Assembly: GCF_024623785.1 (NCBI RefSeq)
Contig: NZ_JANKBZ010000001.1
Location: 744,001-808,000, forward strand
Origin: Archangium lipolyticum
Lineage (GTDB): Bacteria > Myxococcota > Myxococcia > Myxococcales > Myxococcaceae
DNA length: 64,000 bases
Direction: 5' to 3'
Part shown: piece after piece, positions 56,303 through 64,000 of the stretch
How positions within the stretch are numbered: position 1 is the first letter of the stretch
Layout of the letters: each line of letters opens with the position of its first letter
Made by a program: the position numbers and the translations under genes
Notes under the pieces: generated by a model
What the model was told of the DNA's origin: nothing
The model's database searches: none
What the model saw: only the letters and a program-made list of their open reading frames with translations

Positions 56303-57388
56303 TCAACCCCCGAGCACCCGGCTGGTGCGAAGTACGCCCTCGCGCAGCCCGCGGAATGGCAGCCGGGCGAGCGCGGTCGGTACGTCCACCCACTCGTGCG
56401 CATCGTGCTCGTCGCCGAGGTGGACCTCGAAGTCGTCGGAGCACCGGGCGGCGAAACCGTTCTCCTCCACGAGTCTCGGAGGCACCACGCTGCCCACGGC
56501 GAAGGCGTGGCGGTACTCCAGCTCCACCACCTCGGTGCGCAGTCCCGTCTCCTCGAACAGCTCGCGGGCGGCGGCCTCCCGGGGCTGCTCTCCTGGCTCC
56601 AGGCGGCCAGTGACGATCTGCCAGAAGCCACCGCGCTCGGGGCGGCGGCGGAGCAGCAGCACGCGCGCCTCCGGCCCCTTGCCACGCATCAACGTGACGC
56701 ACACGGTGCGCGTGAGGGGCTTGGGCTCGGCCAGCTGGAGCTCGAAGACGTCGGCGAAGTGCCGGGCCACCTTGTCCTCGACCTCGGCCAGGGACACGGG
56801 GCGGCCGAGCTCCTTGCGCATCGAGGTGACTCCGGCCTCGCGGATGCCGCACGGGACGATGAGGTCGAAGTGCGGCAGGTGCGTGTTGACGTTGAGCGCG
56901 AAGCCGTGGCTGGTGAGCCAACGGGAGAGGTGGACACCGATGGCGCAGATCTTCCGGACGTCGGGGGCGTCCTCCTGGCCCAGCCACACACCGGGCCACT
57001 TGGGGATGGTGCCGGAGGAGAGGCCGTACTCGGAGAGGGTGCGGATGATGCACTGCTCGACGTCACGCACGTAGCGGCGCACGTCGTGGCGGTGCTCGGG
57101 CAGGAGGAAGATGGGGTAGCCGACGAGCTGCCCGGGCCCATGGTACGTGACGTCTCCACCGCGATCGGTCTCGAAGATCTCCACGCCCTCGGCGGAGAGA
57201 CGCGCGTCGCTGGCGAGGATGTTGGCGCGCTTCGCGCCGCGGCCCAGGGTGAGGACGGGTGGGTGCTCGAGCAGGAGCAGGGAGTCCCCGCACAGCCCCT
57301 GGCGCCGGGCCTCGCCGAAGAGCTTCATCAGCTGGAGGCCGTCCTCGTATTCGACCCGGCCGAACCGGTACACCGTCAGCGTGTTCAC
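56303..57388 (-). CDS. lipB: octanoyltransferase LipB fused to a Nudix hydrolase
   Basis: A 361-aa fusion. Residues about 1-215 are LipB, which moves octanoyl groups from ACP to lipoyl domains: DRGGDVTYHGPGQLVGYP, the lysine block RKICAIGVHLSRW, and the catalytic cysteine in VPCGIREAGVTSM. Residues about 228-361 are a Nudix domain with a complete box (GRLEPGEQPREAAARELFEE, then TGL). Both look active. Start GTG 57388 overlaps the upstream stop as GTGA. LipA, a lipoyl E2 and lipoamide dehydrogenase lie within 6 kb. The Nudix substrate is unknown; acyl-CoA, acyl-AMP or a damaged nucleotide are options. Confidence 0.93.
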   Translation of the reverse strand: MNTLTVYRFGRVEYEDGLQLMKLFGEARRQGLCGDSLLLLEHPPVLTLGRGAKRANILASDARLSAEGVEIFETDRGGDVTYHGPGQLVGYPIFLLPEHRHDVRRYVRDVEQCIIRTLSEYGLSSGTIPKWPGVWLGQEDAPDVRKICAIGVHLSRWLTSHGFALNVNTHLPHFDLIVPCGIREAGVTSMRKELGRPVSLAEVEDKVARHFADVFELQLAEPKPLTRTVCVTLMRGKGPEARVLLLRRRPERGGFWQIVTGRLEPGEQPREAAARELFEETGLRTEVVELEYRHAFAVGSVVPPRLVEENGFAARCSDDFEVHLGDEHDAHEWVDVPTALARLPFRGLREGVLRTSRVLGG

Positions 57389-58809
57389 GACTTCCCCTTC
57401 CGCCGGCCGCGACGGACCGGAGTCGCCTTCGCCTTCCCCTTCGCCTTCTTCACCTCCAAGCGCCAGGTGCCGGGAGGCACCCGGGCCAGGAGCGCTTGCA
57501 ACTCATGCCCGGAGCGGGGTGAGCGGGCCGCCTCGGTGGCGAGCACGGTGAGCACCTCGTCGGAGAGGCGGAGGTCCTCGCGCGAGGCGAGCCGGCACCG
57601 GGCGATCTCGATCAGCTCCTCGACGGTCGGCGTTTCGAGCGGAATGAGGCTCTGCACCTGTTCCAACAGGACGAGGGGCAGCGCGCCCTGAACGGCCGCG
57701 GAGAGCGCGGCGGTGGAGGGCACGGGCAGACGCCCGGAGTCCGAGAGCAGCACGAGCCCCGGAGCCACTGGAGCGCCCCGAGCGGTCATCAAGACGGTAC
57801 GCTCGGAGTGGCGGGCCAGGAAGGCGCCCAGGGAAGACTGCTCGGCGGACGGGAGCCGGTCCACGTCCTCCACGAGGAGCACGGCATCCATCGGCGCCCG
57901 GTCCAGGGAATCGGGAGTCACGAGCACTCCCCTCCCCTGCTCCGCGAGAGCCCGCATCCAGGTGGTCTTTCCGGAGCCCTCGGGCCCGAGCAGCAGCACG
58001 CGGCGCACACCCGCCTCCAGGCCGCGCTCGAGACCCTCACGGGCCGCATCCTGACCCACCAGCTCGAACGAAACAGGCCGGGAGGCAACCCGCGCCCGAC
58101 CCCGCGCGGCCGACGCCACCGGGGCGACGCCACCGAGCAGCGCATTGGACTCACCGATGCAGGCCGAGCAGATGAACGCTCCGGCGGGACCCGCGACGAG
58201 GGGACCCACCTCCGCACGAGGCCGGCAGCAGAAGGAGCACCAGGCATCGAGGGAGGGATCCGCGCGAGTCGGACCCCGCTCGATGAAAGCCCCCTCTCCC
58301 TCTGGGAGAGGGTTGGGGTGAGGGTCTGCGGGAACCACAGGAGCCACGGGAACCACAGGAGCCACGACCGCGGGCGGCTCGACCGGTCCCGGCACCTCCA
58401 CGCCGAGCACGGCGGAGCGTACGGCCTCCACGGCGGCGCCCACCGGATTGAACCGGCGGTCCACGGCCAGCTCGGCCTGACGCAGGGCCTCGGCGAGCGA
58501 GCTCGAGGTGTCCTCCTCGATCACCCACGTATCCGGCGTGGGCTCATCATCCAGCTCGGAAGCGGAAGACGGTGGCACGACCTCGTCGGCCCGGGCCCCC
58601 GCCTCCAACTGGCGGATCTCCTCTTCCAGCTCGGAGAGGGAGGGGTCCAACTTGAGGGCGTAGCGTAGCAACTGCGCGGCCCGGTCCCCGCTGCCCGAGC
58701 GCCGGTACAGCGCGGCGGCGCGTCGGAGCAGCTCGATGGCGCGGGGCTTGTTCCCCCCGAGCTCCGCGGCCTGGGCGGCGCGGATGACGTCGCGAACGTT
58801 CTCGGCCAT
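57385..58809 (-). CDS. AAA ATPase with TPR-like N-terminus and ClpX-type zinc finger
   Basis: A 474-aa protein I cannot match to a named family. Residues 1-70 form TPR-like helices (AAQAAELGGNKPRAIELLRRA). An acidic and Pro/Val-rich linker carries a peptide, PHPNPLPEGEGAF (about 160-172), encoded by palindromic repeat copy B. Residues about 190-218 are a C4 zinc finger (CSFCCRPRAEVGPLVAGPAG then CSAC) very like that of ClpX. An ATPase domain follows with Walker A LGPEGSGKT near 276 and Walker B AVLLVEDVDRL, then a helical lid and a basic tail (AKGKAKATPVRRGRRKGKS). ClpP-binding loop IGF is not seen. Coupled by GTGA to lipB. A role in choosing substrates for a protease or assembling lipoyl proteins is speculation. 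Confidence 0.8.
   Translation of the reverse strand: MAENVRDVIRAAQAAELGGNKPRAIELLRRAAALYRRSGSGDRAAQLLRYALKLDPSLSELEEEIRQLEAGARADEVVPPSSASELDDEPTPDTWVIEEDTSSSLAEALRQAELAVDRRFNPVGAAVEAVRSAVLGVEVPGPVEPPAVVAPVVPVAPVVPADPHPNPLPEGEGAFIERGPTRADPSLDAWCSFCCRPRAEVGPLVAGPAGAFICSACIGESNALLGGVAPVASAARGRARVASRPVSFELVGQDAAREGLERGLEAGVRRVLLLGPEGSGKTTWMRALAEQGRGVLVTPDSLDRAPMDAVLLVEDVDRLPSAEQSSLGAFLARHSERTVLMTARGAPVAPGLVLLSDSGRLPVPSTAALSAAVQGALPLVLLEQVQSLIPLETPTVEELIEIARCRLASREDLRLSDEVLTVLATEAARSPRSGHELQALLARVPPGTWRLEVKKAKGKAKATPVRRGRRKGKS
58292..58325 (+). repeat. palindromic repeat copy B, inside a coding sequence
   Basis: The core CCCTCTCCC-TCT-GGGAGAGGG is identical to copies A and C; the arm reads TTGGGGTGAGGGT. 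It is translated on the minus strand in frame as part of the linker of the AAA protein, without a stop codon or frame change. Confidence 0.8.
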
Positions 58810-58896: not shown

Positions 58897-60153
58897 TCAG
58901 GCCATGGCCAGGAACAGCATGTCCGGATGCTCCAGGTACTTGATGACCTCGTAGACGAAGTCCGCGGCGACCTGGCCGTCGATGACGCGATGGTCGGCGG
59001 AGATGGAGACGTTCATCATCTCGCGCACGACGATCTGATCGTTCTTGTCCACCACGGGGCGCTTGCGCATGCGGTGGATGCCCATGATGGCCACCTCGGG
59101 GTGGTTGATGATGGGCGTGGCGAAGATGCCGCCCGTCTGGCCGAGCGAGGTGATGGTGAAGGTGCCACCGGTGAGCTCGTCCATCTTCAGCTTGCGCTCA
59201 CGCGCGGCGGTGCTGAGGCGGACGATCTCCTCGGCCAGCTCGCGCAGGGTGAGCCGATCCGCGTGCTTGATGACGGGGACGGTGAGACCCTCGGGGGTGG
59301 CCACGGCGATGCCGATGTTGAACTCGCCCCGGACGACGAGCTCCTGGGCGGCCTCGTCCATGTTGGCGTTGACCTGGGGGTACTTCTTCATCGCGGCGAT
59401 GACGGCCTTCACGATGAAGGGCAGGAAGGACAGCTTGGCCTTCTCGCCGGCGGCGGCCAGGGTGTCGTTGAGGCGCTTGCGGAGGGCCACCAGCTCGGTG
59501 GAATCCACCTCCTCGACGAAGCCGAAGTGCGGCGCGGTGAACTTCGAGCGCACCATCTTCTCGGCGATCTTCTTGCGCAGGCCGCGCAGGGGAATGCGCT
59601 CGTCGCCACGGCCCGACACCACCGAGGGCGCGGCCGGACGGGCCTGGGCGGCCGGAGCGGCCACCTCGTTGCGCGCGGAGCGGCCACCCTCGAGGGCCGC
59701 CACCACGTCCGCCTTCATCACGCGGCCCTGGGGACCGGAGCCGGGGATCTCCGCGAGGTTCAGCCCGTGCTCGGCGGCCATGCGGCGGGTGAGCGGCGTG
59801 GCCAGCACCTTGGAGGCGGCCTGGGGACCCGTGGCTTGGGCAGCGGGAGCCGCGGCCGGAGCGCCATGGGCGGCGGGGGCACCATGACCCGAGGCCTGGA
59901 CCGGAACGGCGCCCTCGATCTCCATCGTGACGAGGGGCTGGTGGACCTTGGCGATCTCGCCTTCCTTGCCGTGCGTCTGCACGACACGACCGGCCTTGGG
60001 GCTGGGCACGGTCACGGTGGCCTTGTCGGTCATCACCTCGGCGAGCGTCTGGTCCTCCTTGACCAGGTCGCCCGGCTTGACGTGCCACTTGACCAGCTCG
60101 CCCTCCTGAACACCTTCGCCCAGGTCGGGCAGCTTGAACTCGAAGATCGCCAT
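58897..60153 (-). CDS. dihydrolipoyl acyltransferase E2 of a 2-oxoacid dehydrogenase complex
   Basis: A 418-aa E2 subunit. One lipoyl domain (1-80, lipoylated Lys44 in MTDKATVTV), an Ala/Pro linker, a peripheral subunit-binding domain (about 115-150, ATPLTRRMAAEHGLNLAEI) and a catalytic domain ending with the active-site block SADHRVIDG near 388. The DKATVTV lipoyl motif and single lipoyl domain favour a branched-chain (BkdB) or pyruvate-type E2; sequence alone does not settle it. No E1 genes are adjacent. Start ATG 60153. lipA lies 36 bp upstream on the same strand, so modification enzyme and target are cotranscribed. Confidence 0.93.
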   Translation of the reverse strand: MAIFEFKLPDLGEGVQEGELVKWHVKPGDLVKEDQTLAEVMTDKATVTVPSPKAGRVVQTHGKEGEIAKVHQPLVTMEIEGAVPVQASGHGAPAAHGAPAAAPAAQATGPQAASKVLATPLTRRMAAEHGLNLAEIPGSGPQGRVMKADVVAALEGGRSARNEVAAPAAQARPAAPSVVSGRGDERIPLRGLRKKIAEKMVRSKFTAPHFGFVEEVDSTELVALRKRLNDTLAAAGEKAKLSFLPFIVKAVIAAMKKYPQVNANMDEAAQELVVRGEFNIGIAVATPEGLTVPVIKHADRLTLRELAEEIVRLSTAARERKLKMDELTGGTFTITSLGQTGGIFATPIINHPEVAIMGIHRMRKRPVVDKNDQIVVREMMNVSISADHRVIDGQVAADFVYEVIKYLEHPDMLFLAMA

Positions 60154-60189: not shown

Positions 60190-61125
60190 TCAGGTGCCGC
60201 TGGCGAGCCCCAGGCGCTCGCGCTCCATGAGGCCCTTCATGAAGAACTCGGCGGCGCGGTAGCTGGAGCGAACCAGCGGCCCGGAGGCGACGTAGAGGAA
60301 GCCGTAGGACTCGGCGAGCTTCTTGTAGTCCTCGAACTGCTGAGGCGTGACGAAGCGCTCCACGCGCAGGTGGTACTGGGACGGCTGCAGGTACTGGCCG
60401 AGCGTGAGCACGTCCACGCCCACCGCGCGCAGGTCCTTGAAGGTCTGATCCAGCTCCGCGTCCGTCTCGCCCAGACCGACCATGACGGAGGTCTTGGTGT
60501 AGAGCCGCTCGGGCCGCTGCTTGAGGTACTCGAGCACCTTGAGGGACTGACGGTAGGTGGCGCGCCGGTCACGCACGGTGGGGGTGAGGCGCTCCACGGT
60601 TTCCACGTTGTGGGCCACCACGTGCGGGCGGGCCTCGGCCACGGTGGCCAGGTCGCGCTCCACGCCCTTGAAGTCGGGGATGAGCACCTCGACGATCGTC
60701 CGGGGCGAGTGCTGGCGCAGCTCGCGGATGGCCGAGGCGAAGTGGCTGGCGCCTCCATCCGGCCGGTCATCCCGGTTCACGGAGGTGACCACGATGTACT
60801 CGAGGTCCATCTCCTTGACGGCCTGGGCCAGGTGGATGGGCTCCATCGGATCCAACGGAGGAGGCGCTCCCACCTTCACGTGGCAGAAGCGGCACGCGCG
60901 GGTGCACACCTCGCCCATGAGCATCACCGTGGCGGTGCCACCGCCCCAGCACTCGGCGATGTTGGGGCAGCGGGCCTCCTCGCACACCGTGGCCAGCTTC
61001 GTGCGGCGGACGATGGATTTCACCCGCTCGTACCCCTCCCCGTGGGGGAGGCGCACCTTCAGCCACTCGGGCTTCCGGGTGGACTCGGATACCTGCGGCA
61101 GGGGGAAACGATCGGGAGTTGCCAT
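60190..61125 (-). CDS. lipA: lipoyl synthase
   Basis: A 311-aa radical SAM enzyme inserting sulfur into octanoyl-protein to form lipoyl groups. Both clusters are visible: the N-terminal auxiliary [4Fe-4S] motif CEEARCPNIAEC and the SAM-binding CTRACRFC. Other blocks include DRPDGGASHFA, VMVGLGET and QYLQPS. Start ATG 61125 gives the normal length; the open frame beyond is unsupported. It is followed by the E2 gene at 36 bp. Confidence 0.96.
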   Translation of the reverse strand: MATPDRFPLPQVSESTRKPEWLKVRLPHGEGYERVKSIVRRTKLATVCEEARCPNIAECWGGGTATVMLMGEVCTRACRFCHVKVGAPPPLDPMEPIHLAQAVKEMDLEYIVVTSVNRDDRPDGGASHFASAIRELRQHSPRTIVEVLIPDFKGVERDLATVAEARPHVVAHNVETVERLTPTVRDRRATYRQSLKVLEYLKQRPERLYTKTSVMVGLGETDAELDQTFKDLRAVGVDVLTLGQYLQPSQYHLRVERFVTPQQFEDYKKLAESYGFLYVASGPLVRSSYRAAEFFMKGLMERERLGLASGT

Positions 61126-62239: not shown

Positions 62240-63637
62240 TCAGATGTGGATCGGGTGACCCAGGGTGGCCTCGGCGCCCTCCTTCATGATCTCGGAGAGG
62301 GTCGGGTGGGCGTGCATGGTGTGCGCGAGCTCCTCGGTGGTGATCTCCAGGCGCATGGCGACGCAGGCCTCGGCGAGGAGCTCGGTGGCGTGGGGGCCCA
62401 CGAGGTGGACACCGAGCACCTCGTCATACTTCTTGTCGGAGATGACCTTGATCATGCCGATGGCCTCGTTGGAGATGGAGGCCTTGGTGACGGCGGAGAA
62501 CGGGAAGATGGCGCTCTTCACGTCGTAGCCGCGCTCCTTGGCCTTCTTCTCGGTGAGGCCGACGGAGGCCACCTCGGGGTAGCAGTAGGTGGCGGAGGGG
62601 GTGAGGTCGTAGTTGATGGGAGCGGGGTTCTTGCCGGCGATGTGCTCGACGGCGAGGACGCACTCGGCGCTGGCCACGTGGGCGAGCATCGGCGTGGGGA
62701 TCACGTCACCGATCGCGTACACGTTCGGCTCGGTGGTGCGCATCATGGTGTCGGTCTTGATGAAACCGCGGTCGGGCTTGATGGAGGTGAACTGAAGCCC
62801 GATGTCCTCGGTGACGGGAGCGCGGCCCACGGCGGACAGGACGAGCTCGGCCTCGATGGTGCGGGTCTCGCTGCCGACGGTCATGGTCAGCTTCACGCCG
62901 TTGGCGGTGTTCTCGACCTTCTCCACCTTGGCACCGGTGTGGAGATCGATCTTCCGGCGCTTGAAGTGCCGCTCCAGCTCCTTGGAGGCGTCGATGTCCT
63001 CGATGGGGAGCAGGTTGGGCATGTACTCCACGATGGAGACCTGGGTGCCCATGTGGTTGAAGACGGAGGCGAACTCGCAGCCCACGGCGCCGGCGCCGAT
63101 GACGATCAGGCTCTTGGGAATGCGGTCGATCTCCAGGATGGAGTCGCTGTTGAGGACGCGCTTGTGGTCCACGACGATGTTGGGCAGCGACTTGGGCACC
63201 GAGCCGGTGGCGATGATGATGTTCTTGGTGTCCAGCGTCTGCTTGCCACCGGCCTCGAGGGCGACCTCGACCTTGCCCTTGCCGGCGATGCGGCCGTGAC
63301 CCTTGAACACGGTCACCTTGTTCTTCTTCATCAGGAAGTCGATGCCGTTGGCACCCTTGGTGACCACCTTCTGCTTGTGCTCCTGGACCTTGGCCCAGTT
63401 GACCACCGGAGCCGGCACCTCGATACCGAAGTCCGCGGCCTCACGGATGTGATGGAGCAGCGCGGCGGACCAGAGGAGGGACTTGGTGGGGATGCAGCCG
63501 CGGTGGAGGCACGTGCCACCCAGGCGCTTGTCCTTCTCGATGAGAGCCGTCTTCAGCCCGAGCTGCGCGGCTCGGATGGCACCGACGTACCCGCCAGGGC
63601 CCGAACCGATGATGACCACGTCGAAAGTCTCAGCCAC
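62240..63637 (-). CDS. lpdA: dihydrolipoyl dehydrogenase (E3)
   Basis: A 465-aa flavoenzyme reoxidising dihydrolipoyl groups of 2-oxoacid dehydrogenases or the glycine cleavage system. FAD-binding VVIIGSGPGGYVGAI, redox disulfide GGTCLHRGCIPTKS, NAD-binding VIGAGAVGCEFAS, second FAD block NVYAIGDVI and the dimer-interface catalytic HPTLSE are all intact. Start GTG 63637 has GGAGG upstream; the open frame beyond is not supported. It is separated from lipA and E2 only by the convergent DUF72 gene, so lipoate enzymes are clustered here. Confidence 0.95.
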   Translation of the reverse strand: MAETFDVVIIGSGPGGYVGAIRAAQLGLKTALIEKDKRLGGTCLHRGCIPTKSLLWSAALLHHIREAADFGIEVPAPVVNWAKVQEHKQKVVTKGANGIDFLMKKNKVTVFKGHGRIAGKGKVEVALEAGGKQTLDTKNIIIATGSVPKSLPNIVVDHKRVLNSDSILEIDRIPKSLIVIGAGAVGCEFASVFNHMGTQVSIVEYMPNLLPIEDIDASKELERHFKRRKIDLHTGAKVEKVENTANGVKLTMTVGSETRTIEAELVLSAVGRAPVTEDIGLQFTSIKPDRGFIKTDTMMRTTEPNVYAIGDVIPTPMLAHVASAECVLAVEHIAGKNPAPINYDLTPSATYCYPEVASVGLTEKKAKERGYDVKSAIFPFSAVTKASISNEAIGMIKVISDKKYDEVLGVHLVGPHATELLAEACVAMRLEITTEELAHTMHAHPTLSEIMKEGAEATLGHPIHI

Positions 63638-63712
63638 GAACGCCTCCGGAGTGGATGTACCCGCGCGGCGCTGATAACCACCCATCCCGGCCGGAATCAA
63701 GGAGTTTGCACC

Positions 63713-64000
63713 GTGCGACGCTTTCCGCTCCGAACGCTGCTGCTGATGGCGCTGGCCCTGGCGGCCTTCGCGCGCCTCTACTACCTCACCCATGTAAACG
63801 GGCGTCAGGCCGAGAGCCCCACCCCCGCCCCAGCGAAAGCGGACGAGCGGGCCATCGACGTGACGCCTCGTGGCCCCGAGGCAGGCCCCACCCCGGGCGC
63901 CCAGGCCTGCCGCACCCTGGATCGCTCCCTGGAGGGCGCGGTGCGAGCGCCCTCGGACCCGGCCGCCCTCGCCACGGCGCGGCAACAGCTCGACGCCTGC
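63713..64000 (+). CDS. membrane-anchored protein of unknown function, cut by right edge
   Basis: The frame from GTG 63713 (AAGGAG eight bases upstream) is open to the end of the window, giving 96 residues. It has a basic start and one hydrophobic helix (RTLLLMALALAAFARLYYL), probably a signal anchor, then a Pro/Ala/Asp-rich linker and two cysteines (AQACRTLDRS, LDAC). No family recognised; probably periplasmic. It is divergent from lpdA with a 75-bp gap. Confidence 0.6.
   Translation, partial: MRRFPLRTLLLMALALAAFARLYYLTHVNGRQAESPTPAPAKADERAIDVTPRGPEAGPTPGAQACRTLDRSLEGAVRAPSDPAALATARQQLDAC

Follow-up and report, generated by a model that had tools for sequence, protein, structure and literature searches.

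A stretch of 64,000 nucleotides from the genome of Archangium lipolyticum (contig NZ_JANKBZ010000001.1, positions 744,001 to 808,000; hereafter the window, numbered from its first nucleotide) contains a gene, hereafter the finger gene, that overlaps the gene for the octanoyl transferase LipB and encodes a protein of 474 amino acids (aa) combining a ClpX-type zinc finger with two other parts. The finger gene starts with ATG, and the features on which the analysis centers are the following.

57385..58809, minus strand: finger gene, encoding the 474-aa protein with a TPR-like part, a ClpX-type C4 finger and a minimal AAA+ domain (open reading frame (ORF), Pfam, AlphaFold)
58582..58809, minus strand: TPR-like helical N-domain, residues 1-76 (AlphaFold)
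58292..58324, no strand assigned: 33-base-pair (bp) palindromic dispersed repeat in the linker, in frame (genome copy count)
58135..58242, minus strand: ClpX-type C4 zinc finger, residues 190-225, CSFC...CSAC (PF06689)
57451..58077, minus strand: minimal AAA+ domain, residues 245-453 (AlphaFold and structure comparison)
57964..57987, minus strand: Walker A, GPEGSGKT, residues 275-282 (motif)
57853..57879, minus strand: Walker B-like LLVEDVDRL, residues 311-319, with E-D replacing D-E (motif)
57394..57401, minus strand: GGAAGGGG, probable lipB ribosome-binding site in the last codons of the finger gene (GGAAGGG conservation)
56303..57388, minus strand: LipB (octanoyl transferase) fused to a Nudix domain, beginning inside the finger gene at GTGA (ORF and domain models)

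The only Pfam family that scores above its cut-off on the 474-aa protein is PF06689 (zf-C4_ClpX), which covers residues 190-225 (E 6.9e-12, 45.5 bits against a cut-off of 27); matches to P-loop and TPR families are sub-threshold. The same family matches all 60 sequences of the alignment, the window protein included, and C191, C194, C214 and C217 are invariant among these, so the ClpX-like C4 finger proposed in the first-pass annotation of this DNA is confirmed. The AlphaFold model, built with the 60-row family alignment (mean predicted local distance difference test (pLDDT) score of 78.7), predicts the helical N-domain and the AAA+ domain with confidence, shows the linker as disordered and has low to middling confidence in the finger. 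The block means of pLDDT are 95-98 over residues 11-70, 61-76 in the finger (compared with 92-94 for the finger of a short natural family member, L070) and 89-98 over residues 251-450. The N-domain comprises helices at residues 5-17, 21-37, 41-54 and 59-76. The earlier description of this region as TPR-like holds for the predicted helices and does not extend to the TPR profiles, which score 14.8 bits against a cut-off of 30.1 (TPR_12) and 13.9 against 27 (TPR_2). When the N-domain of a short member was compared with TPR and other helical proteins, the Z scores were 8.1-10.2 over 49-57 residues, which is within the chance range for helical arrangements; membership of the TPR family is therefore not claimed, and 'TPR-like' is used here as a descriptive term.

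The family to which the window protein belongs includes 79 distinct proteins after the removal of L071 and L003 from the protein alignment and the collapse of identical sequences. All three parts (TPR-like, finger and AAA) are found in 71 of these, with the finger preceding the AAA domain as the first-pass annotation had it. No AAA domain is detectable in the other eight, one of which, L077, is cut by the end of a contig and hence is not counted. The remaining seven proteins, with whole reading frames, retain the helices and the C4 finger, are ~107-259 aa long (the start codons of three are uncertain) and, in six cases, still have lipB downstream. Among the 71 complete members, the finger is the most conserved part (mean pairwise identity 0.73), followed by the N-domain (0.54), the AAA domain (0.43) and the linker (0.32, based on 972/2485 comparable pairs). 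The ratio of nonsynonymous to synonymous substitution rates (dN/dS), estimated by the Nei-Gojobori method for 11 pairs, in two of which dS is near 1, ranges from 0 to 0.51 in the TPR-like part, from 0 to 0.43 in the finger, from 0.13 to 0.61 in the AAA domain and from 0.24 to 0.94 in the linker. Thus, dN/dS is below 1 for the TPR-like part, the finger and the AAA domain in all 11 pairs, although the order of the parts varies by pair: in L052-L053, the TPR-like value equals that for the AAA domain and, in L061-L065, the finger exceeds the AAA domain. The constant core of the family is the TPR-like part together with the finger, and the ATPase is the variable part.

In a phylogenetic tree of LipB, which has long branches and was built without L077, L078 and L100, six AAA-less members could be placed, and they are spread over three separate, well-supported clades that hold or adjoin AAA-bearing members. 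Four of these belong to a 19-row clade (support 100/99) with weak internal forks, L080 groups with L108 and L109 (99/98), and L107 is the sister of the 48-row main clade (99/98). This distribution implies that the AAA domain was lost or gained more than once; the summary table of the tree skips unlabeled rows and does not count AAA changes. Chance is excluded as the source of this architecture by the presence of the three parts in 71 of the 79 proteins, by lipB standing behind 77 of the 79 genes, and by the dN/dS values below 1 in the 11 pairs.

The link to lipB is tight. In the window, the finger gene and the gene for LipB-Nudix overlap by the four bases GTGA, as noted in the first-pass annotation, which proposed conservation of this link in other Myxococcota as a check. 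Conserved it is: 77 of the 79 distinct members have lipB behind them on the same strand, and this count is not circular because the members were found through the protein and not through lipB. The overlap is exactly four bases in 50 members (GTGA in 28, ATGA in 21 and TTGA in one), and the gap does not exceed 11 bases in 72, measures 53-98 bases in three, and is 327 and 665 bases in two. In the 50 genes with the four-base overlap, GGAAGGG precedes the lipB start, within the last codons of the finger gene, with positional frequencies of 0.74-0.98, and is the probable lipB ribosome-binding site, as judged from sequence. The conserved R-K-G at the C-terminus of the protein is accordingly explainable by the codons that encode this site.

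Further genes for lipoylation and 2-oxoacid dehydrogenase components lie upstream of the finger gene.

58897..60153, minus strand: 2-oxoacid dehydrogenase E2, the lipoyl-bearing acyltransferase (domain models)
60190..61125, minus strand: LipA lipoyl synthase (TIGR00510, 398 bits)
62240..63985, minus strand: ORF with E3 dihydrolipoyl dehydrogenase, the domain beginning at ~63625 (TIGR01350, 572 bits, residues 121-581)

An E2 gene is found in the examined flank, the length of which differs between loci, in 60 of the 79 members. The 15 loci of the sister families that lack the finger gene have other genes in front of lipB: E1-like in eight (seven by motif, L145 by eye), E3 in four, and something else in three (L133, L138 and L140). 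Given that the sister families fill the pre-lipB slot otherwise, the finger gene is a lineage-specific insertion into the lipoylation/2-oxoacid-dehydrogenase cluster. The variety of genes that fit this slot, along with the HIT-like gene that follows the finger gene in genome G025, would also be expected if the finger gene occupied its position only for co-expression and had a function unrelated to lipoylation. We consider this improbable given the 77 cases of adjacency among the 79 members, which extend to proteins as low as 30% identical to the window protein, and given that the adjacency is kept in 11 metagenome loci with neither E2 nor LipA in the flank (L057-L062, L064, L065, L068, L069 and L072) and in the reduced genomes G022 and G109.

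What, then, is the relationship of the finger protein to ClpX? The two share the sequence of the C4 finger, the order of finger, flexible stretch and AAA+ domain, and the AAA+ fold itself. The finger protein differs in its additional TPR-like N-domain and in the finger, where the two CxxC pairs are separated by 19 residues in 76 of the 79 members against 18 in both ClpX proteins of the same genome (one extra residue), and where the family has CSFCC-RP in place of the CSFCGKS of ClpX. The ClpX models of NCBIfam, TIGR00382 and NF003745, are matched by the finger alone and far below their cut-offs (27.4 bits against 359 and 18.5 against 370.75, respectively), so that the sequence likeness to ClpX is mainly confined to the finger. 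The N-domain of ClpX dimerizes and, according to the part of the source used here, is important in the recognition of some substrates and adaptors (PMC5415555). Outside ClpX, the same domain is found in some cyanobacterial sigma factors, where the consulted portion of a second article describes it as terminal and accessory (PMC11119718). These factors are akin to the finger protein in using zf-C4_ClpX as an accessory module and differ in its terminal position; that portion mentions no link to lipB.

The close likeness of the finger to that of ClpX, the presence of two finger-bearing ClpX proteins in the genome, and the proximity of lipA and E2 in many loci are compatible with a modulator of ClpX, the finger of which would pair or compete with the zinc-binding domain of the true ClpX proteins and would thereby control how ClpXP turns over lipoyl enzymes, for example LipA, a putative ClpXP client. 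This scenario is quite unlikely in view of the consistent departures of the family finger in both loop length and sequence, and of the AAA-less members encoded in the two reduced genomes, G022 (2.7 Mb) and G109 (2.3 Mb), in which little of the finger is kept beyond the four cysteines.

The AAA+ domain itself, the motifs of which were counted over the 71 AAA-bearing members, departs from ClpX as well. The Walker A motif GxxxxGK[S/T] is intact in all 71. Walker B is another matter: E-[D/E]-x-[D/E] is found in 48 members, a D-D pair in three more (L081, L108 and L109), and D-E in none, compared with IDEID in both ClpX proteins of the same genome. At sensor 2, 54 members have H-E-L and seven have A-R-E-L, and, by the patterns used, no member combines the acidic Walker B pair with the sensor-2 arginine. 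An arginine is located near the arginine-finger position in 30 members by a loose pattern and in 25 by a stricter one, and the aligned position itself is variable (E, Q, H, R and others). The state of these motifs differs between lineages: the clade that includes the window protein keeps the E-D pair and lacks the finger arginine, members from Corallococcus have the arginine one place on, and the Walker B pair is mostly gone from the metagenome relatives, some of which retain the arginine-finger-like S-P-x-L-L-S-R-V.

The loops that ClpX employs are pore-1, pore-2, RKH and IGF, as given in the part of the source consulted (PMC7112952). The pore-1 GYVG-type motif and the ClpP-binding IGF-type loop, [ILV]GF, are present in both ClpX proteins of the same genome and in none of the 71 members. 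The RKH loop is absent from the window protein, and RK[HL] is found in one of the 71, which is a weak test given that one of the two ClpX proteins also lacks this loop. The ATPase is short: Walker A and sensor 2 are 164 residues apart in the window protein and 253 in the two ClpX proteins. The successive intervals from Walker A through Walker B, sensor 1 and the arginine finger to sensor 2 are 56, 55, 54 and 60 residues long in both ClpX proteins, compared with 30, 21, 35 and 46 between the aligned positions of the window protein, so that, with the intervals thus shortened, the room for the pore-1, pore-2, RKH and IGF loops is largely gone. These motif and spacing counts bear out the earlier statements that the ATPase is shorter, its P-loop being clear and its AAA+ fold predicted, and that no ClpP loop is evident. 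Motifs, spacing and profile scores together rule out a standard ClpX paralogue; the first-pass annotation would have been undone by a ClpX with a ClpP loop or by an unconserved gene pair, and the protein lacks the former whereas the pair is conserved.

It is unlikely, by sequence, that the finger protein works like ClpX; it looks like nucleotide binding is retained and the apparatus of hydrolysis is drifting. The first-pass annotation had left a choice between a protease-independent remodeler and an adaptor, and the comparison of the family members favors the latter, with its constant core of TPR-like part and finger. A ClpP-independent, ATP-driven remodeler, with a finger that recruits a client (LipB or E2, for example) and an AAA+ ring that remodels this client, would be consistent with the P-loop in 71 of 71 members, the acidic Walker B pairs in 48, the dN/dS of the AAA domain, and the first place of ClpX in a structural comparison described below. 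We nevertheless deem it unlikely, considering that the pore-1 and IGF-type motifs as well as the D-E Walker B are missing from all 71, that the acidic Walker B pair and the sensor-2 arginine do not occur together, that the arginine-finger position varies, and that no AAA domain is detected in seven members whose frames are intact.

The ancestry of the AAA+ domain can be approached through both structure and sequence. In the second structural comparison, the 50 best rows, with Z scores of 13.6-15.0, all bear titles of AAA+ proteins. The top row is ClpX (3hte_E; Z 15.0, root-mean-square deviation (rmsd) 3.1, 190 residues), followed by RFC (1sxj_C; Z about 14.2-14.3, rmsd 3.2, 175 residues) and domain III of DnaA (2z4r_A; Z 13.7, rmsd 3.1, 182 residues); in effect, ClpX is tied with RFC, and DnaA is a little lower, level with the lower ClpX rows. 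In a profile search against PDB sequences, P-loop matches predominate, and midasin ranks first solely through the summing of many weak domains. For the isolated AAA domain of the window protein, the best NCBIfam models are HdaA (E 2.9e-5, 23.8 bits) and, level with it, the RFC small subunit (2.9e-5); when the isolated domains of 36 members were searched at E 0.01, the RFC small subunit matched 14 and ClpX three. The lid sequence GHELxALLxRV resembles the sensor-2 helix of DnaA. Thus, the sequence of the AAA+ part leans toward RFC and Hda, and descent from ClpX, which is level with RFC in structure, is possible.

The matches to the RFC small subunit and Hda models, along with a lysine/arginine-rich tail in the clade of the window protein, raise the prospect of an Hda/DnaA-type or clamp-loader-type regulator that would act on nucleic acid, or on a nucleic-acid machine, via its basic C-terminal tail. 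This appears very unlikely. The scores are far under the curated cut-offs (23.8 of the 300 bits set for the HdaA equivalog), the metagenome members shown lack the tail, and its conserved end can be accounted for by the encoded ribosome-binding site of lipB. A further difference from Hda and DnaA is at sensor 2, where the arginine is mostly replaced by histidine.

The reading that we favor, although at somewhat less than even confidence, is that the finger protein is a lineage-specific adaptor of the lipoylation/2-oxoacid-dehydrogenase gene cluster; most likely, judging from the motifs, it is an adaptor rather than a remodeler, and the ATPase, where present, is a nucleotide-binding switch. The adaptor activity, the partner and the switch are what we infer, in the following form. 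The TPR-like helices would bind a partner, and the ClpX-type zinc-binding domain, by analogy with ClpX, would bind a peptide or client and dimerize, the two together making up the working core. Synthesis would be kept in step with that of LipB through translational coupling. The AAA+ domain, where present, would bind nucleotide via its intact Walker A motif and serve as a switch or an oligomerization module, being perhaps akin to AAA+ proteins of the Hda/DnaA type and not to a polypeptide-threading ring. LipB, a lipoyl-domain protein and ClpX itself are the candidate partners.

Several observations weigh against this reading. The E-D Walker B pairs may still support hydrolysis, and the AAA domain seems to be useful where it is present, considering its dN/dS of 0.13-0.61 in the 11 pairs. 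The AAA fold fits ClpX no worse than it fits RFC or DnaA, and Foldseek places RuvB first for the AAA+ model. Two exceptions to the lipB adjacency come from sister family f3: in G025, a HIT-like gene takes the place of lipB behind the gene for the AAA-less protein (L078:2097-3205; HIT was read from the sequence), with no LipB match in this genome, which is 86% complete, and in G002, lipB is on another contig behind a different gene. The coupling to lipB could, moreover, be merely a means to set expression.

A more specific proposition, which we hold with less confidence than the adaptor reading itself and regard as a possibility, is that these proteins constitute a new lipoylation-linked family in which the zinc-binding domain operates apart from the unfoldase, is joined to TPR-like helices and is accompanied by an AAA+ switch that several lineages lost or never had, the whole forming a dedicated adaptor for LipB/E2 assembly or turnover that is made in a fixed ratio with LipB. 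Protein lipoylation is not known to require more than LipB/LplA-type and LipA enzymes. A conserved LipB-coupled companion across a whole bacterial family suggests an unrecognized step of control or assembly in lipoylation, and a client-binding finger of the ClpX type apart from the ClpX motor opens the binding function to study alone. The natural series of members with an ATPase-like domain, with a more degenerate one and with none makes the role of each part testable in Myxococcus xanthus, the orthologue of which is L053. In the part of the source used here, the three ClpX proteins of M. xanthus, ClpX1-3, are MXAN_2015, 4054 and 2743, and the finger protein is unmentioned (PMC11423568). Among the titles and abstracts returned by searches of the open-access literature, none describes the finger protein. 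The finger, the AAA+ fold and the TPR-like array are of already known kinds; those titles and abstracts contain no account of the three being combined, of the coupling to lipB or of the ATPase being repeatedly absent.

The family is narrowly distributed. A search of the order with the window protein yielded matches at 1e-6 in 68 of 117 genomes, and a search of the phylum with a profile of the TPR-like part and the finger gave 100 of 195 genomes at 1e-8, 97 of which belong to Myxococcaceae or to families f2 and f3 of the same order. The other three, from family f25, match in the finger only and were read as ClpX-type. A scan of GTDB with short patterns, which finds close relatives only, returned 40 loci, all from Myxococcota (one labeled Deltaproteobacteria only) apart from L071 and L045. 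The former, from Dyella, matches over the finger and P-loop only and was dropped before the counts as probably a true ClpX. The latter, labeled Comamonas sp. KCTC 72670, is probably a mislabeled record, given that its proteins and gene order are like those of Myxococcus and that its LipB falls with that genus in the tree; it was kept in the counts. Members were detected in Myxococcaceae and two sister families only, and, considering that the GTDB scan reaches close relatives, distant members may exist elsewhere. A mobile origin and a phage or defense function were considered and rejected: a plasmid search gave no match for the finger gene, PADLOC gave a P-loop match only (0.007), and PHROGs gave five weak matches, two of them to clamp-loader P-loops and two in the finger region.

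The fusion of LipB with Nudix was traced separately in 22 genomes, which were drawn from other families, from the reduced members and, in two cases, from another class. LipB or Nudix matches were detected in 20 of these, 13 of which align over both domains in one stretch, which indicates that the fusion is more widespread in the order than the finger gene. One of the sister-family genes that precede lipB, that of L140 (G010, family f3), encodes a TPR-rich protein without the finger.

The linker bears marks of its own. The 33-bp palindromic repeat at 58292-58324 has 459 copies in the genome when up to three mismatches are allowed, compared with none for the reversed control, and contributes the peptide DPHPNPLPEGEG to the linker of the window protein; a related peptide is found in L033 and none in L005. 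The AAA-less L107 (the locus of G150) has a different peptide that resembles a dispersed repeat, PLTPSLSQGERGG, behind the finger, so the gene may have been struck by repeat insertions more than once. In the otherwise variable linkers of the metagenome members L057, L058, L059, L062, L064 and L069, the motif GFGD recurs and is possibly a binding motif.

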